Shown one piece after another: positions 4,987-13,303 of a DNA stretch of 27,732 nt; position 1 is the first letter of the stretch; each line of letters opens with the position of its first letter. The stretch is from Isotricha intestinalis (lineage: Eukaryota > Ciliophora > Litostomatea > Vestibuliferida > Isotrichidae): positions 1-27,732 of the forward strand of contig JAJJLU010003843.1 in assembly GCA_023807065.1 (NCBI GenBank), given 5' to 3'. The notes beneath the pieces are model-generated. The model had not been told where the DNA came from. It saw only the letters and a program-made list of their open reading frames with translations, and made no database searches. A program made the translations under genes and the position numbers.

Positions 4987-7900
4987 ATGGGTATTTGCTG
5001 TGATAATACTCAAAGTAAATTATTATAATAAACAATATAGAGGTAGCAACAGAAATAAAAACAGATGCTTTTGCACTTTCAAATAATAATCAAACATTAG
5101 TTTTAAATAGTCATCATTCAAAAAAAATGGGATTAAATGCTTTAGGTGTAATTAATTATTTTATTAATTATAGATTAGACAGAAACAGATAAAGCTTTAA
5201 CGAAAAAAAAAATGAAATTTATTCATGACATTGATAAAAATATAAATGACCGAAAGATTTTAGATGTTAGAAAATCCTTTTCTTTTCATAAAAAAATAAA
5301 TTCCACTGACCCATTAAAAAAAGATATTATAGGAACTTTACATGATGATGAAGAAGATTTAAAAATTAAAGTTGAAAATTGTTTAAATGAAGAAAACCAA
5401 AAAAAATTTTGGCAAAGAAATTCTTTAGAACATAAGATTCCAAAAAATGCTTCAAAACATAGTAGATTATCTATAATGTCAATTCCTAAAGACATCTTAA
5501 ATGCTAAAAGTAATAATAATAATAATAATAATATGAATATTAATAATAATATTAATAGTCCTATGAATAATCTTAATAGTAAAAATAATAATAATAATAA
5601 TAATCTTATAATAAATAAAAATAGTGTAAGTCACAAAAATTCAGAAGAGATAAAAGAAGAAATAAAAAAGAAATGTGTTAATAGAGAATTAACTGAAGAA
5701 GAAGAAGAAAAAATAAAAGAAATATTTAGAAATCAATTTATATTTGATTCAGTTCCTGATTCTTTATTAAATGTAGTTTTAGAATCTTTAATATTAATCC
5801 ATATATCAAAAGGAGAATATTTATATACAAAAGGTTCTCAAAAATCTTATTTTTATATAATATTAAAAGGTTCTTTTGAACAATATTCTTTATTAGATAA
5901 TAATGAAATAGAAGTTCCTAAAATTTATAAAGAATGGGAATCAATTGGAATAGATTGTTTAATGGCTAATAATACTATAAGTACTTTTGATCATTCACTT
6001 TTATGTTTAAATGATGCTGAAGTTTTAGTTTTAGATTCTGATAAATTTGTTCAAATAAAAGAAACTATTATTAATCTTAATTTAAAAGATAGATATGACT
6101 TTTTAAATAATATTATTATTTTCAAAACTTTAGATTCTATTATCAAACATAATATTGCAAAAAAAATGGAATTAATTACTTATAAAAAAGATGAAGTTAT
6201 TATTAAAAAAGGAGATAAAAAAAATAAATCTTTATATTTAATTAAAAAAGGTTTTGTAAGATGTTGTTTAAATGGAAAAGATATAAGAATATTAAAAGAA
6301 AATAGTATATTTGGGATGTTAGCATTAATATTAGAACAAGAAAGAACTTTAGATGTTCTTATAGGAGAAGATGATACATTATTATTTGAAATAACAAGAG
6401 AAGATATTATTGATTCAATTGGTGAAAATTATGTTGATATAATGTTATTTTCAATATATAAAAATGTAGTAGATCAAAATTTAAATTTACACGATTTAAT
6501 AAATGAAGAAAATATAAATGACTTATATGATTTTTTTAAAATAGTACAATATAAAAATAAAGAAAATATAAATAATAATATTAAAGAAAAAAACCTTTCA
6601 AAGAAAAGAATAATAATAATAATAGAAGGAAATTTCATAGATGAAAAAACAAAAGAAGTAAAATATAAATCAGGAGATTTAATTGGTGAAGAAGTAATAA
6701 AAAATCAAACAGATATTCCTAATAACTTAATTGCATTTCCAGATGTAACTTCAATAGAAGCAAATTTAGAAGAAATAGAAGAAATATTAGGAGAAGAATA
6801 TAAAAAAAATGCAAATACAATAAAATTATTAGTCAAAAAATTAAAGAAAGTTCCTTTATTAAGTAATTTAACAGAAAATGAATTAAAATCAATATCAAAT
6901 TATTTAAAAACCGAAAAATATATTCAAGGACAAGAAATAATAAAAGAAGGAAATGACGCAGATTATTTTTATATATTATTTAAAGGAAGTGTTACAGTTT
7001 CAAGAAAAGGAAAAAGATTAAGAGATTTAGAAAAAGGAAGTTTCTTTGGTCAATTAGGTTTATTATCAGAAAATAAAAAAAGAACTTCTACAATTGTTGC
7101 AATTTCAAATTCAATTTGTTATCTTCTTCCAAAAGAACATTTTAATATATTATTAAATAATAAAATTACTAATGGTTTAATTAAAAAAGCTAATTCTTTA
7201 CAAAATGATTTAATGTCTTTTGAAGATTTATATTATATGAAACATTTAGGAATGGGTCAATTTGGAAGTGTAAGTTTAGTACATAATAATCAATTTATAT
7301 TTGCTATTAAAGCAATATTAAAACATGATGCAAATTTAAAGAGAAAAATAGCAGATTATATAATTTCAGAAAGGAGAATTTTATTAGCATTAGATCATCC
7401 TTTTATAGGAAAAATGGTTAAAAGTTTTAAAAATGATTTTTTTGTTTTTTTCTTAATAGAATATATAAACGGAGTAACAATGTCACATGTAATAAAAAAT
7501 TTAAATTTTACAGTAAAAGAGAATCGTTTTTACATAGCATCATTATTATTAGCAATAGAATATTTACACAGAGAGAAAATAGTTCATAGAGATATAAAGC
7601 CAAATAATGTAATGATAACATCAAAAGGATTTATAAAATTAATCGATTTTGGAACTGCAAAATTTATAGTAGATTTTACAAGCACTGTAATAGGAACACC
7701 ACATTATTTATCACCTGAGATTTTACTTGGACAAGGATATTCTTACTCATGTGATTATTGGTCTATTGGAGTTGTTGCTTATGAATTAACTTATAAATGT
7801 TATCCTTTTGGAGGTCATAGTAAAGATGTTATGGAAATTTATCATGATATTATGTATTCTTCTGGATTTAATTATCCTAATAATAATAGTGAAAATATTT

Positions 7901-8190
7901 ATATTAATCATTTAATTGATGGATTACTTTGTAAAAAAGTTGAAAAAAGACTTTGTAATATTAGTAAAATTAAAAAAATGAAAGTTTTTGAAAATTTTAA
8001 TTGGAATGAATTATTAAACAGAAGTATGAAACCTCCTTTTATTCCTGAAGTTCCTAATTTATGTGAAATTCAATTAGATCAATTTAAAATGAAATATGAA
8101 GATTATATTTATGAAGAATTAAATAATTTTCCTCCTAAATTTTTAGAGGATACTGTTTATGAAAATTGTGGTTGGGATGAAGAATTTTAA
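4987..8190 (+). CDS. cGMP-dependent-type protein kinase (PKG), four CNB-like domains, three exons
   Basis: Exons 4987-5014, 5041-5147 and 5179-8190 give about 1048 residues. The spliced start MGICCDNTQ is a textbook N-myristoylation plus palmitoylation signal, so the kinase is probably membrane-bound. After a poly-Asn linker come four CNB-like modules (about 228-340, 353-470, 492-590 and 599-720), the alveolate PKG layout. Their phosphate-binding cassettes are degenerate: [16 protein letters not shown] in the second and [16 protein letters not shown] in the fourth keep the Arg but lack the canonical Glu; the first and third lack both. The AGC kinase domain is intact: LGMGQFGSV near 734, Lys in FAIKAIL near 756, HRDIKPNN near 850, DFGTA near 868, and an activation loop [13 protein letters not shown]. 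The protein ends GWDEEF, like the C-terminal tail of known PKGs. Family assignment is firm; the ligand is not. If the upstream exons were wrong, translation would begin at 5212 (992 residues). Confidence 0.88.
5015..5040 (+). other. 26-nt GT-AG intron in PKG
   Basis: GTAAAT to ATATAG, phase 1, after codon CAA of MGICCDNTQ. Skipping it joins A to AG (Lys) and continues in an open frame, [16 protein letters not shown]. The unspliced frame hits a stop within the intron. Confidence 0.7.
5148..5178 (+). other. 31-nt GT-AG intron in PKG
   Basis: GTAATT to ATTAG, phase 0, between GGT and ACA. It removes an in-frame TAA/TAG region and joins NALG to [17 protein letters not shown], the main kinase frame. 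An earlier acceptor (ATAG ending at 5173) would leave a TAG in the kinase frame, so the later TTAG is preferred; transcript evidence is needed to settle the exact acceptor. Confidence 0.6.
5512..5604 (+). repeat. AAT trinucleotide tracts encoding poly-Asn
   Basis: Two runs of AAT repeats, separated by short interruptions, lie inside the PKG coding sequence and encode Asn stretches between the N-terminal region and the first CNB-like module. The reading frame is kept, so this is an in-frame microsatellite and low-complexity linker. Confidence 0.9.
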
Positions 8191-10270: not shown

Positions 10271-13200
10271 ATGAATAAAAAGGAAGAAATTTCAAGTGAC
10301 GAATCAATGAATAGTGATGAAAATAGTGATAATTCTTCAAGTGATTCAAATAAAAAAAAAAAGGAAGAAAAGTCAATTGTTACAAAAAATGATATCATTT
10401 TAGATAATTATGTTCTATTATCAGAAGCAGGAAAAGGTTCATTTGGTCAAATATATTTATCATATAGTATGAGAGATAATATAGAAGTGGCAATAAAAAA
10501 GGAAATGAAAAGAATAAATCAAAAAACATATCAATTAAAAAATGAATGTAAAATATATCAGCAATTATTAAATATACCACAAAAAATAGATTTAACAGGA
10601 ATAAATATAATTCCTCAAACACCTAATCAAGGAGTTCCTAAATTTTATGGAATGGGAGAAAATTTAGATTCTTTTTATTTAATAACTGAATTTTTAGGTC
10701 CAAATTTATTAGAATTATTTTATTATTGTGGAAATAATAAATTTAGTATAATTACAGTATGTTTATTAGCAATTCAAATGTTAAATAGAATAGAATATTT
10801 ACATAAGAATAATTATGTTCATAAAGATATTAAACCAGAAAATTTTTTAATTGGAACAAATGAAAAATCAAATGTGTTATATTTAGTAGATTTTGGTTTA
10901 AGTAAAAGATATAGAAATCCAAGAACACATTCTCATATTCCATATCATGAAGGAAGAAGATTAACAGGAACTGCAAGATATGTCTCAATAAATACTCACT
11001 TAGGAATTGAACAAAGTAGAAGAGATGATTTAGAAAGTATTGGTTATTTAATTATATTTTTTTTAAAAGGAAAATTACCTTGGATGGGATTAAAAGATAG
11101 TAAAAATCGTGGGAAAAATAAATATGAAAGAATTAAAGAAAAAAAACTACAAATACCAACTGAAATTTTATGTCATAGTTTACCTGAAGAAGTTACTGTT
11201 TATCTTAATTATTGTAAAAGTTTAAAATTTGAAGATAGACCAAATTATGATTATATAAGAGGATTATTTATTAGGTTATTAGGAAATTCTTCTGAAACTT
11301 ATGGAATTGTAAAAGAAAACATAAAATTTGATTGGTGTTTCGAAGATAAATTTAGACTTATGGAACTTTTTCAAATGAAAAAAGATTCAACTATAGATGA
11401 TGATAATCTAAATAATTTACATGGATTACATAAAGCTCCAAATGAACTTTCAATGATTGATGAACAACAATATAATGAAAAGAAAAATGAAGATGAAGAT
11501 GATAATAATTCTGAATCATCTTATGATTCTCAAAAAACAGCTGAAGTCAATTTTAAAGGTATTGATAAAGAAGAAGTTAATGTTAAAAATGTTTTAACTA
11601 CTTTAATTCATCAAGAAAATATTGACAAATATATTGGAACATTAATTCAAAATGATAATGATCAAAAAAATAATGGTATTCAACAAAAAAAAACTTTGAA
11701 ATTAAATCCAGAAGAAGAAAAAAGAAAAATTGAAGAACAAGCAAAAAATATATTATTAAATGAAATGAAAAATATGACATTACCTCCAGATTCATTAATA
11801 AAAAATAATGATGAAGAGAAATATAAAGAAATAAGAAGAAAACAACATGCTCGTTCTTCTTGGAAACATTTAACAGATATTGGATTTAGAAAAAATATAC
11901 AATTAATTCTTCAAAAAGAACAATGTATAAAAATAAATAAAGAAAAAGTTACTCAGTATTATTCTGTTTTAGAAGATTTAGGACATGGAGCTTTTGGAAG
12001 TGTTAAAAAAGTTTTACATAAACAATTAAATGAATATAGAGCTATGAAAATAGTTAATAAGTTATTACATTCAAGTCATAATGAAATAGAAATTTTAAGA
12101 AAAATATCTCATCCTAATATAGTTAATATATTTGAAATATTTGAAGATAAAAAAAAATATTATATAATAAATGAATTATGTGATGGAGGAGAATTATTTT
12201 CAGCAATTTCAGACAGAGGTTATTTCACAGAATTTGAAGCAAGTAAAATAATAAAGCAATTATTAGAAACAATAAATTATTTACATTCAATGAATATAGT
12301 TCATAGAGATATAAAACCAGAAAATATAATGTTAATGGCAAATGGAAAAGATATAAAATTAATAGATTTTGGAACAGCAATAGAATTACCAAAAAGAAAA
12401 AAATTAACAAAATTAATAGGAACTTCATATTATATAGCTCCTGAAGTTATAGGACATAATTATGATGAAAAATGTGATGTTTGGTCTTGTGGAATAATAT
12501 TACATATTTTATTATGTGGTTATCCTCCTTTTAATGGTCCAACTAATAATGATATCTATAGTGCTATTCAACATAGTAAATTATTATTTAAAAGAGAAAA
12601 TTGGACTCATATTTCTAAAGAAGCTATTAAATTAATTAAGAAAATGCTAGAAAAAAATCCGAAAAAAAGACCAACTGCTGAAGAATGCTTATCCGATTTT
12701 TGGTTTTCTAAAACTACTTTTAATAAAGATGCAGAAATTAAAATAAATAAAGTTGAAATTTTAGAAAGAATGGCACAATTTGTTCAACAAAATAAATTTA
12801 AACAAGCTGTTTTACAATTTATTTCAACCCAATTTAATTTGAAAAAAGAAGAAGAAAATTTAAAAGAAATTTTCAAAGCTTTTGATAAAGAAGGAAAAGG
12901 TGTTATTTCAAAAAAAGATTTTGTAGAACAAATAGATAATATTTATGGTGGTTTTATAAATGAAGAAGTATCAAATATAGTTTTTAGGAATTTAGATTTA
13001 GATAATTCAGGAGAAATTTCATATAATGAATTTTTAACATCTGTAATTGATTCTCAAAAAATTTTAACAGAAGATAGATTAAAAAAAGCTTTTGATATGT
13101 TTGATAAAGATGGAAGTGGTGCTATAGATTTAGATGAAATTAAAGTTTATTTTGGAGGAAATGATAAATTGTGGAAAAAAGTTATTAAAGAAATTGATTT

Positions 13201-13303
13201 AAATGGTGATGGACAAGTTGATTTTGAAGAATTTAAAAAAATGATGATTGGAATGGATCCTAAAGAAATTGTAGGAGGTAATGTTAATGAAGAAGAAAAT
13301 TAA
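10271..13303 (+). CDS. Casein kinase 1 - CDPK fusion protein with four EF-hands
   Basis: One uninterrupted 1010-residue frame (ATG at 10271, TAA at 13301). Residues about 47-340 are a full CK1 kinase: GKGSFGQIYLS, VAIKKE (Lys near 75), GPNLLELF, HKDIKPEN (Asp near 185, Lys replacing the usual Arg), DFGLSKRYR and the CK1 signature LTGTARYVSINTHLGIEQSR. A charged linker of about 220 residues follows. Residues about 563-815 are a CaMK-type kinase: GHGAFGSV, AMKIVNK, HRDIKPEN (Asp near 679), DFGTA and GTSYYIAPEV. A junction segment then leads to four EF-hands: DKEGKGVISKKD near 870, DLDNSGEISYNE near 905, DKDGSGAIDLDE near 942 and DLNGDGQVDFEE near 975; the first is less regular. The CDPK half should be Ca2+-switched through its autoinhibitory junction and calmodulin-like lobe; CK1 is usually constitutive and prefers acidic or primed substrates. 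Both kinases look catalytically complete. The fusion could put CK1 output under Ca2+ control, which is inference. Confidence 0.93.
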   Translation: MNKKEEISSDESMNSDENSDNSSSDSNKKKKEEKSIVTKNDIILDNYVLLSEAGKGSFGQIYLSYSMRDNIEVAIKKEMKRINQKTYQLKNECKIYQQLLNIPQKIDLTGINIIPQTPNQGVPKFYGMGENLDSFYLITEFLGPNLLELFYYCGNNKFSIITVCLLAIQMLNRIEYLHKNNYVHKDIKPENFLIGTNEKSNVLYLVDFGLSKRYRNPRTHSHIPYHEGRRLTGTARYVSINTHLGIEQSRRDDLESIGYLIIFFLKGKLPWMGLKDSKNRGKNKYERIKEKKLQIPTEILCHSLPEEVTVYLNYCKSLKFEDRPNYDYIRGLFIRLLGNSSETYGIVKENIKFDWCFEDKFRLMELFQMKKDSTIDDDNLNNLHGLHKAPNELSMIDEQQYNEKKNEDEDDNNSESSYDSQKTAEVNFKGIDKEEVNVKNVLTTLIHQENIDKYIGTLIQNDNDQKNNGIQQKKTLKLNPEEEKRKIEEQAKNILLNEMKNMTLPPDSLIKNNDEEKYKEIRRKQHARSSWKHLTDIGFRKNIQLILQKEQCIKINKEKVTQYYSVLEDLGHGAFGSVKKVLHKQLNEYRAMKIVNKLLHSSHNEIEILRKISHPNIVNIFEIFEDKKKYYIINELCDGGELFSAISDRGYFTEFEASKIIKQLLETINYLHSMNIVHRDIKPENIMLMANGKDIKLIDFGTAIELPKRKKLTKLIGTSYYIAPEVIGHNYDEKCDVWSCGIILHILLCGYPPFNGPTNNDIYSAIQHSKLLFKRENWTHISKEAIKLIKKMLEKNPKKRPTAEECLSDFWFSKTTFNKDAEIKINKVEILERMAQFVQQNKFKQAVLQFISTQFNLKKEEENLKEIFKAFDKEGKGVISKKDFVEQIDNIYGGFINEEVSNIVFRNLDLDNSGEISYNEFLTSVIDSQKILTEDRLKKAFDMFDKDGSGAIDLDEIKVYFGGNDKLWKKVIKEIDLNGDGQVDFEEFKKMMIGMDPKEIVGGNVNEEEN

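Follow-up and report, generated by a model that had tools for sequence, protein, structure and literature searches.

A casein kinase 1–calcium-dependent protein kinase fusion and its paralogs in the ciliate Isotricha intestinalis

A single open reading frame of the ciliate Isotricha intestinalis encodes a casein kinase 1 (CK1) followed by a Ca2+-dependent protein kinase (CDPK), and sequence comparisons strongly support this arrangement as a genuine in-frame fusion. The gene lies at positions 10271..13303 on the forward strand of a 27,732-nucleotide stretch of DNA, hereafter the window, which constitutes an entire contig (JAJJLU010003843.1, labelled C1279) of a 57.3-Mb assembly. The fusion is both real and conserved, and it has expanded to about twenty fused paralogs in the same genome. 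CK1 is usually seen as a constitutive kinase that is controlled by its tail, its location, and the priming of its substrates. A conserved family in which CK1 and a Ca2+-sensing kinase share one covalent chain would give CK1 a direct Ca2+ input, and the fusion suggests a little-known way of linking a normally always-on kinase to Ca2+ signals.

As originally predicted, the frame runs without an internal stop through 1010 codons to a TAA and holds a CK1 and then a CaMK-type kinase, a reading borne out by translation, Pfam, and a PDB sequence search; the chance of such a frame in random sequence of the same base composition is log10 P ~ -44. The calculated mass of the encoded protein, 117.7 kDa, agrees with the anticipated value near 118 kDa. 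Pfam matches two Pkinase stretches and EF-hands, and the PDB search matches residues 45–347 to CK1 delta (4kb8, E 2e-85) and residues 563–993 to a CDPK3 (3hzt, E 1e-99). The chain, with all its features on the forward strand, opens with a charged, Ser-rich N-terminal tail (residues 1–40, 10271..10390), modelled at a predicted local distance difference test (pLDDT) <50 for residues 1–39. The CK1 domain follows (residues 41–350, 10391..11320), with the CK1 fold and the CK1 signature LTGTARYVSINTHLGIEQSR from residue 231, in which SIN replaces APE. The N-terminal half is a CK1; the whole protein is not an ordinary CK1, a family characterized by no further domain in the chain, since Pfam places a CDPK half in the same frame. 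Between the two kinases lies a linker (residues 351–558, 11321..11944), mostly of low model confidence, which was correctly predicted to exist and measures 208 residues rather than about 220.

The second half displays the CDPK layout. Its CDPK/CAMK-type kinase domain (residues 559–815, 11945..12715), delineated by Pfam, structure matches, and alignment, has intact catalytic residues, and its best PDB matches are CDPKs. A junction region of the autoinhibitory type (residues 827–871, 12749..12883) aligns with the matching region of the CDPKs 3hzt and 3lij; AlphaFold predicts helices at 827–854 and 857–871, partly at pLDDT <50. Four EF-hand loops then follow in order by alignment (12884..12919, 12995..13030, 13103..13138, and 13196..13231), in keeping with the predicted number; only the last three are canonical, as loop 1 (DKEGKGVISKKD) has neither the acidic ligands expected there nor the Glu at its end and is degenerate, that is, non-canonical or weak.

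On each of 20 contigs of the genome, one open frame matches both CK1 and CDPK. Sixteen of these frames are unbroken from ATG to stop, EF region included; three run off the contig end (C426, C1525, and C1000), and one (C927) ends early, inside EF-hand 1. An EF-hand-like DNA match is found on C927 at 47433–47594, downstream of the frame break. EF-hand DNA matches also occur on C643, C1031, and C400, contigs without a CK1 match that may carry the ends lost from fused genes truncated on other contigs. In a CK1-only search of the genome, the top 20 places are precisely the 20 fused frames (381–701 bits), and the next place scores 273. The 82 further CK1-like places (91–273 bits) and 25 further CDPK-like places (292–386 bits), which include pieces or broken frames, belong to the same two families, but score well apart from the fused frames.

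A whole-protein database search yielded 1847 matches, of which the best 120, mostly metagenome proteins, were compared; with the window protein they form 121 rows, which represent not 120 species but 38 non-redundant rows at <80% identity, query included. Following the proposal that the same domain order be sought in relatives, the order of CK1 then CDPK kinase was recovered in 120/120 of these best matches. Three of them (P0005, P0006, and P0011) are 98–99% identical to genes of the same Isotricha intestinalis genome as the window. The catalytic Lys, Glu, Asp, Asn, and DFG Asp of both kinases are present in 121/121 rows. The CK1-half HRD motif is kept in 119/121, the Arg being replaced by Lys in two rows, one of which is the window protein with its HKD. 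EF loops counted by pattern number four in 84/121 rows and three in 37/121. Some members of the family are labelled calcium-dependent protein kinase in JGI data; fusion sequences are thus already in databases, where the architecture seems unremarked. Two "protein kinases" of an archaeal metagenome-assembled genome (P0021 and P0346) are CK1-CDPK and CDPK proteins that resemble those of this ciliate and are probably mis-binned eukaryotic contigs. Family-alignment scans returned no close fusion relative among 80 of 578 loci on genome contigs, whose titles are bacterial with few archaeal, or among 50 loci on viral contigs, the best-segment identities in the two scans being 23–48%.

That the contig merely joins two loci, a concern raised with the original prediction, is excluded because 20 fused frames reside on 20 contigs, one of them (C15) capped by telomere repeats at both ends, and 120/120 listed relatives share the order. 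For the same reasons, an assembly chimera or a lost stop codon joining two neighbouring genes is vanishingly improbable and, for the fusion as such, already refuted. What can be said for a chimera is confined to a patch of 21 residues: the window protein is identical to P0002 except for six differences, all within residues 952–972 (window 13124–13186), where it agrees with P0004 at all but residue 952. Contig C1128 matches this region at 93% DNA identity over 193 bases. The patch resembles the outcome of gene conversion or of a minor assembly error, possibly a local mix-up in EF3-EF4.

The claimed fusion draws further support from the kinase halves being more constrained than the linker. Judged from the coding sequences, both halves are under purifying selection that is stronger than on the linker. 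Rough ratios of nonsynonymous to synonymous change (dN/dS), obtained with a simple counting method from strongly AT-biased sequence, are ~0.35 for CK1, ~0.25 for the CDPK kinase, and ~0.47 for the linker between C1279 and C1128, and 0.09, 0.12, and 0.57, respectively, between C301 and C1702. Over the 16 complete paralogs, pairwise distances of the CK1 and CDPK halves correlate (r 0.72, p 0.0001), as expected from joint inheritance. Trees of the two halves were built by a quick method without bootstraps and contain some long branches; their rows mix fusions with cut-off or exon-like fragments, and group counts are no measure of gains or losses. The CDPK halves and related fragments separate from 15 stand-alone-size CDPKs by a branch of support 100 and length 0.82. 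In the CK1 tree, a branch of support 100 and length 0.57 sets apart 15 rows, which include ordinary CK1s, the named animal ones among them. Several rows on the fused side come from listed frames that lack a CDPK, so that unfused relatives on that side are possible. The paralogs of this genome interleave with metagenome rows, and much of the spread of the family therefore seems older than this genome.

A fused gene could still yield separate kinases. The halves would be parted by a transcript starting internally or by splicing or cleavage within the linker, which would leave the genomic fusion of little functional bearing; we consider this improbable. Some database relatives occur as CK1-only and CDPK-only frames with an equal longest contig (e.g., 9144 and 14961 bases), showing that the linker can be interrupted in DNA. 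In this other lineage, the CK1 frames P0149, P0159, P0165, and P0172 end just past FDWCFDDL-x-x-LW in an intron-like hydrophobic stretch (P0160 bears a variant of this ending), and CDPK frames in the other search list share their longest-contig sizes (5129, 9144, 14961, and 7366 bases). However, the CDPK frame P0295 starts with linker-like motifs (SEATI and EDIDLYINKL) ahead of its kinase, which suggests an intron in the linker rather than two genes, equal sizes being all that places the paired frames on the same contigs. The original prediction had counted a linker intron against the fusion; one may exist in that lineage, and the fusion would persist at the protein level. A fifth pair, P0123 and P0273 (6335 bases), looks more like a frame break within the linker than an intron. 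Separate halves are also at variance with the 16/20 unbroken frames in this genome and with conserved motifs throughout the linker.

The linker varies from 209 to 538 residues in the 121 rows and from 209 to 577 in the paralogs of this genome, and it contains three motifs identified by conservation. The first, S420-x-x-T423-x4-F428-x-G430 (11528..11560), resembles a primed CK1 site. S420 is kept in 120/121 rows, T423 in 121/121, F428 in 119/121, and G430 in 44/121, with Pro at position 430 in 71; the corresponding counts are Ser 19/20, Thr 20/20, and Phe 20/20 in the genome's own paralogs. Of the 38 non-redundant rows, 37 have Ser at -3, all 38 have Thr, and 37 have Phe at +5; the background frequencies in the linker are 10.7% Ser, 4.2% Thr, and 2.1% Phe. 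Acidic residues cluster around the motif. CK1 favours a phosphorylated or acidic residue three positions before its target, a primed-site pattern that S-x-x-T-x4-F fits. The second motif, E449-x-I-D-x-Y-I-x-x-L458 (11615..11644), retains I451 in 118/121 rows and Y454 in 119/121, and is predicted to be helical at 449–460 in the AlphaFold model of the whole protein and at 451–461 in a second model. The third, K549-E-x-x-I-K-I555 (11915..11935), stands immediately ahead of the CDPK kinase and keeps K549 in 121/121 rows, I553 in 114/121, and I555 in 116/121. On the CK1 side, R229 is invariant in a 50-row alignment and R236 is present in 121/121 rows; they align with K171 and R178 of the CK1 delta phosphate pocket. 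The whole-protein AlphaFold model (predicted template modelling score, pTM, 0.41) shows two kinases and the motif 2 helix within a linker otherwise mostly of low confidence.

Both kinases of the window copy look active from their motifs. Our best explanation as a whole, to which we give an even chance, is a real two-kinase enzyme in which CK1 would be rendered Ca2+-responsive through the linker tether; Ca2+ control of CK1 through the tether, taken by itself, is about evenly balanced. As in known CDPKs, the junction would keep the CDPK half off until its EF-hands bind Ca2+. The linker would stand in for the CK1 C-terminal tail: in CK1 delta, the phosphorylated tail folds back to inhibit the kinase, and here the S-x-x-T motif, phosphorylated in primed CK1 manner, might fold back onto the CK1 phosphate pocket and hold CK1 down. 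Ca2+ binding or CDPK activity would then move the tether, making CK1 output Ca2+-responsive and confined to CDPK sites.

The best support for such inferred gating comes from two paralogs, C1085 and C900, in which an intact CK1 is joined to a dead CDPK kinase. Their CDPK halves have lost the P-loop glycines, carry Arg for the beta-3 Lys and Ser for the Asn of HRDxKPEN, and read NFS for DFG; EF2 and EF3 are canonical and EF-hand 4 is degenerate, and S-x-x-T-x4-F of motif 1 is kept. The dead half shows dN/dS ~0.26, and is therefore still kept. At the motifs checked, a dead CK1 was found in none of the 20 fused paralogs. That the CDPK kinase is dead and CK1 intact argues for CK1 being the essential output, with the CDPK half regulating it, and links motif 1 with CK1. 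The role of the CDPK half may be to sense Ca2+ for CK1, and in C1085 and C900, where it is catalytically dead, it would be a pure sensor. A broader proposal, that the family forms a new multi-gene class of Ca2+-gated CK1s in which a self-phosphorylated S-x-x-T tether acts as the switch and the CDPK has decayed to a sensor in some paralogs, is tentative and short of an even chance. Ranging from chains with both kinases live to chains whose only live kinase is CK1, the paralogs would in turn provide a natural series for probing Ca2+ gating.

Several considerations weigh against a gated tether. C1085 and C900 are close relatives, and the death of the CDPK kinase is consequently a single event. 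The linker as a whole is fast-evolving, and in two pairs involving C186 it exhibits no constraint (pN/pS 1.11 and 1.12). The motif 2 Tyr is kept in only 15/20 of the genome's own paralogs and is gone in five (C1085, C900, C1083, C927, and C1000). Neither the whole-protein AlphaFold model nor that of CK1 with the linker placed any motif on either kinase, and the surroundings of motif 1 have pLDDT <50 in both, so that a docked linker is unsupported by the models. The tail inhibition of CK1 delta serves here as an analogy. Alternatively, motif 1 could act in docking.

A tethered relay, in which two independent kinases are co-localised at one place or substrate, a Ca2+-activated CDPK primes, and CK1, itself not Ca2+-gated, phosphorylates three residues on, is possible without being probable. 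Such a relay would account for the invariance of both catalytic centres in 121/121 rows and for a linker that is long, variable, and mostly at pLDDT <50, as for a tether. It is harder to reconcile with the two paralogs whose dead yet constrained CDPK kinase would not need a relay, and the conserved linker motifs would require another role. The Ca2+-responsive, linker-tethered CK1 remains our preferred reading.

Structural comparisons place the two halves in well-known families. Foldseek matches one half to CDPKs, at 35–38% identity in the rows shown, and the other to CK1 delta. The CK1 half is also confirmed by VIA-align, whose rows cover almost only residues 40–359; ranked first there, level with many other CK1 delta entries, is a structure of CK1 delta whose phosphorylated tail is tethered. 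Like the apicomplexan-type CDPKs (Toxoplasma and Eimeria CDPK1, Cryptosporidium CDPK3), the fusion has a CAMK-type kinase, junction helices, and four EF loops in the same order, but a whole CK1 and linker replace the N-terminal variable region and EF-hand 1 is non-canonical. In contrast to CK1 delta/epsilon and yeast Hrr25, its tail runs on into a second kinase with EF-hands, and relative to CK1 delta it harbours insertions, the largest of ~17 residues near residues 100–120. A further parallel is RSK, likewise a single chain in which a regulatory linker connects kinase domains of two kinds, in that case an AGC and a CAMK kinase; we know of no dual-kinase protein such as RSK with a CK1 or with EF-hands.

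No description of a CK1-CDPK fusion was found in the literature searched, which excludes most subscription papers and all preprints, and to that extent the claim that none has been described holds. CK1 proteins are portrayed as having no additional domains in a passage of one account (PMC3019232). The CK1 and CDPK families are reported as expanded in ciliates in a text whose relevant passages do not mention the fusion (PMC3341644), and the fused family may belong to these expansions. Another report puts forward rumen-ciliate CDPKs as inhibitor targets (PMC6925433). Judging from its group, the ciliate with the fusion probably lives in a gut.

The 16 complete fused frames stop at TAA in 13 cases, TGA in two, and TAG in one, and GC content in the window is 13–27% per 600-base stretch. 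Contig ends bear (CCCCAAT)n: the pattern CCCCAAN x3 matches 956 times forward and 863 times in reverse, the control giving 0 and 1, and nearly all of 100 listed places read CCCCAAT at contig ends. The telomere unit and standard-code stops point to a trichostome ciliate; the trichostome Muniziella cunhai is described, in a section of its report, with the same unit (CCCCAAT), the standard code, and an AT-rich genome (PMC11316547).

Among the other CK1 genes of the genome, those on C133 and C1344 encode very long tails of low complexity that end in clustered cysteines (CCTIM and CCTII), and their products are perhaps lipid-anchored like CK1 gamma. Considered as further fusions (frames of 886 and 997 aa), they revealed no second kinase by eye, no family search having been made; from the first Met, their open reading frames span 864 and 963 aa, each holding only part of a CK1. 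A CK1-like protein on C1101 (1236–3071 in locus coordinates), whose HRD and DFG look degenerate, is perhaps a pseudokinase. Within the window, an Rfam scan gave no match and an ARAGORN scan no tRNA. The neighbouring gene (window 5212–8190) encodes three cyclic-nucleotide-binding stretches and a kinase by Pfam, a layout like that of a cGMP-dependent kinase.
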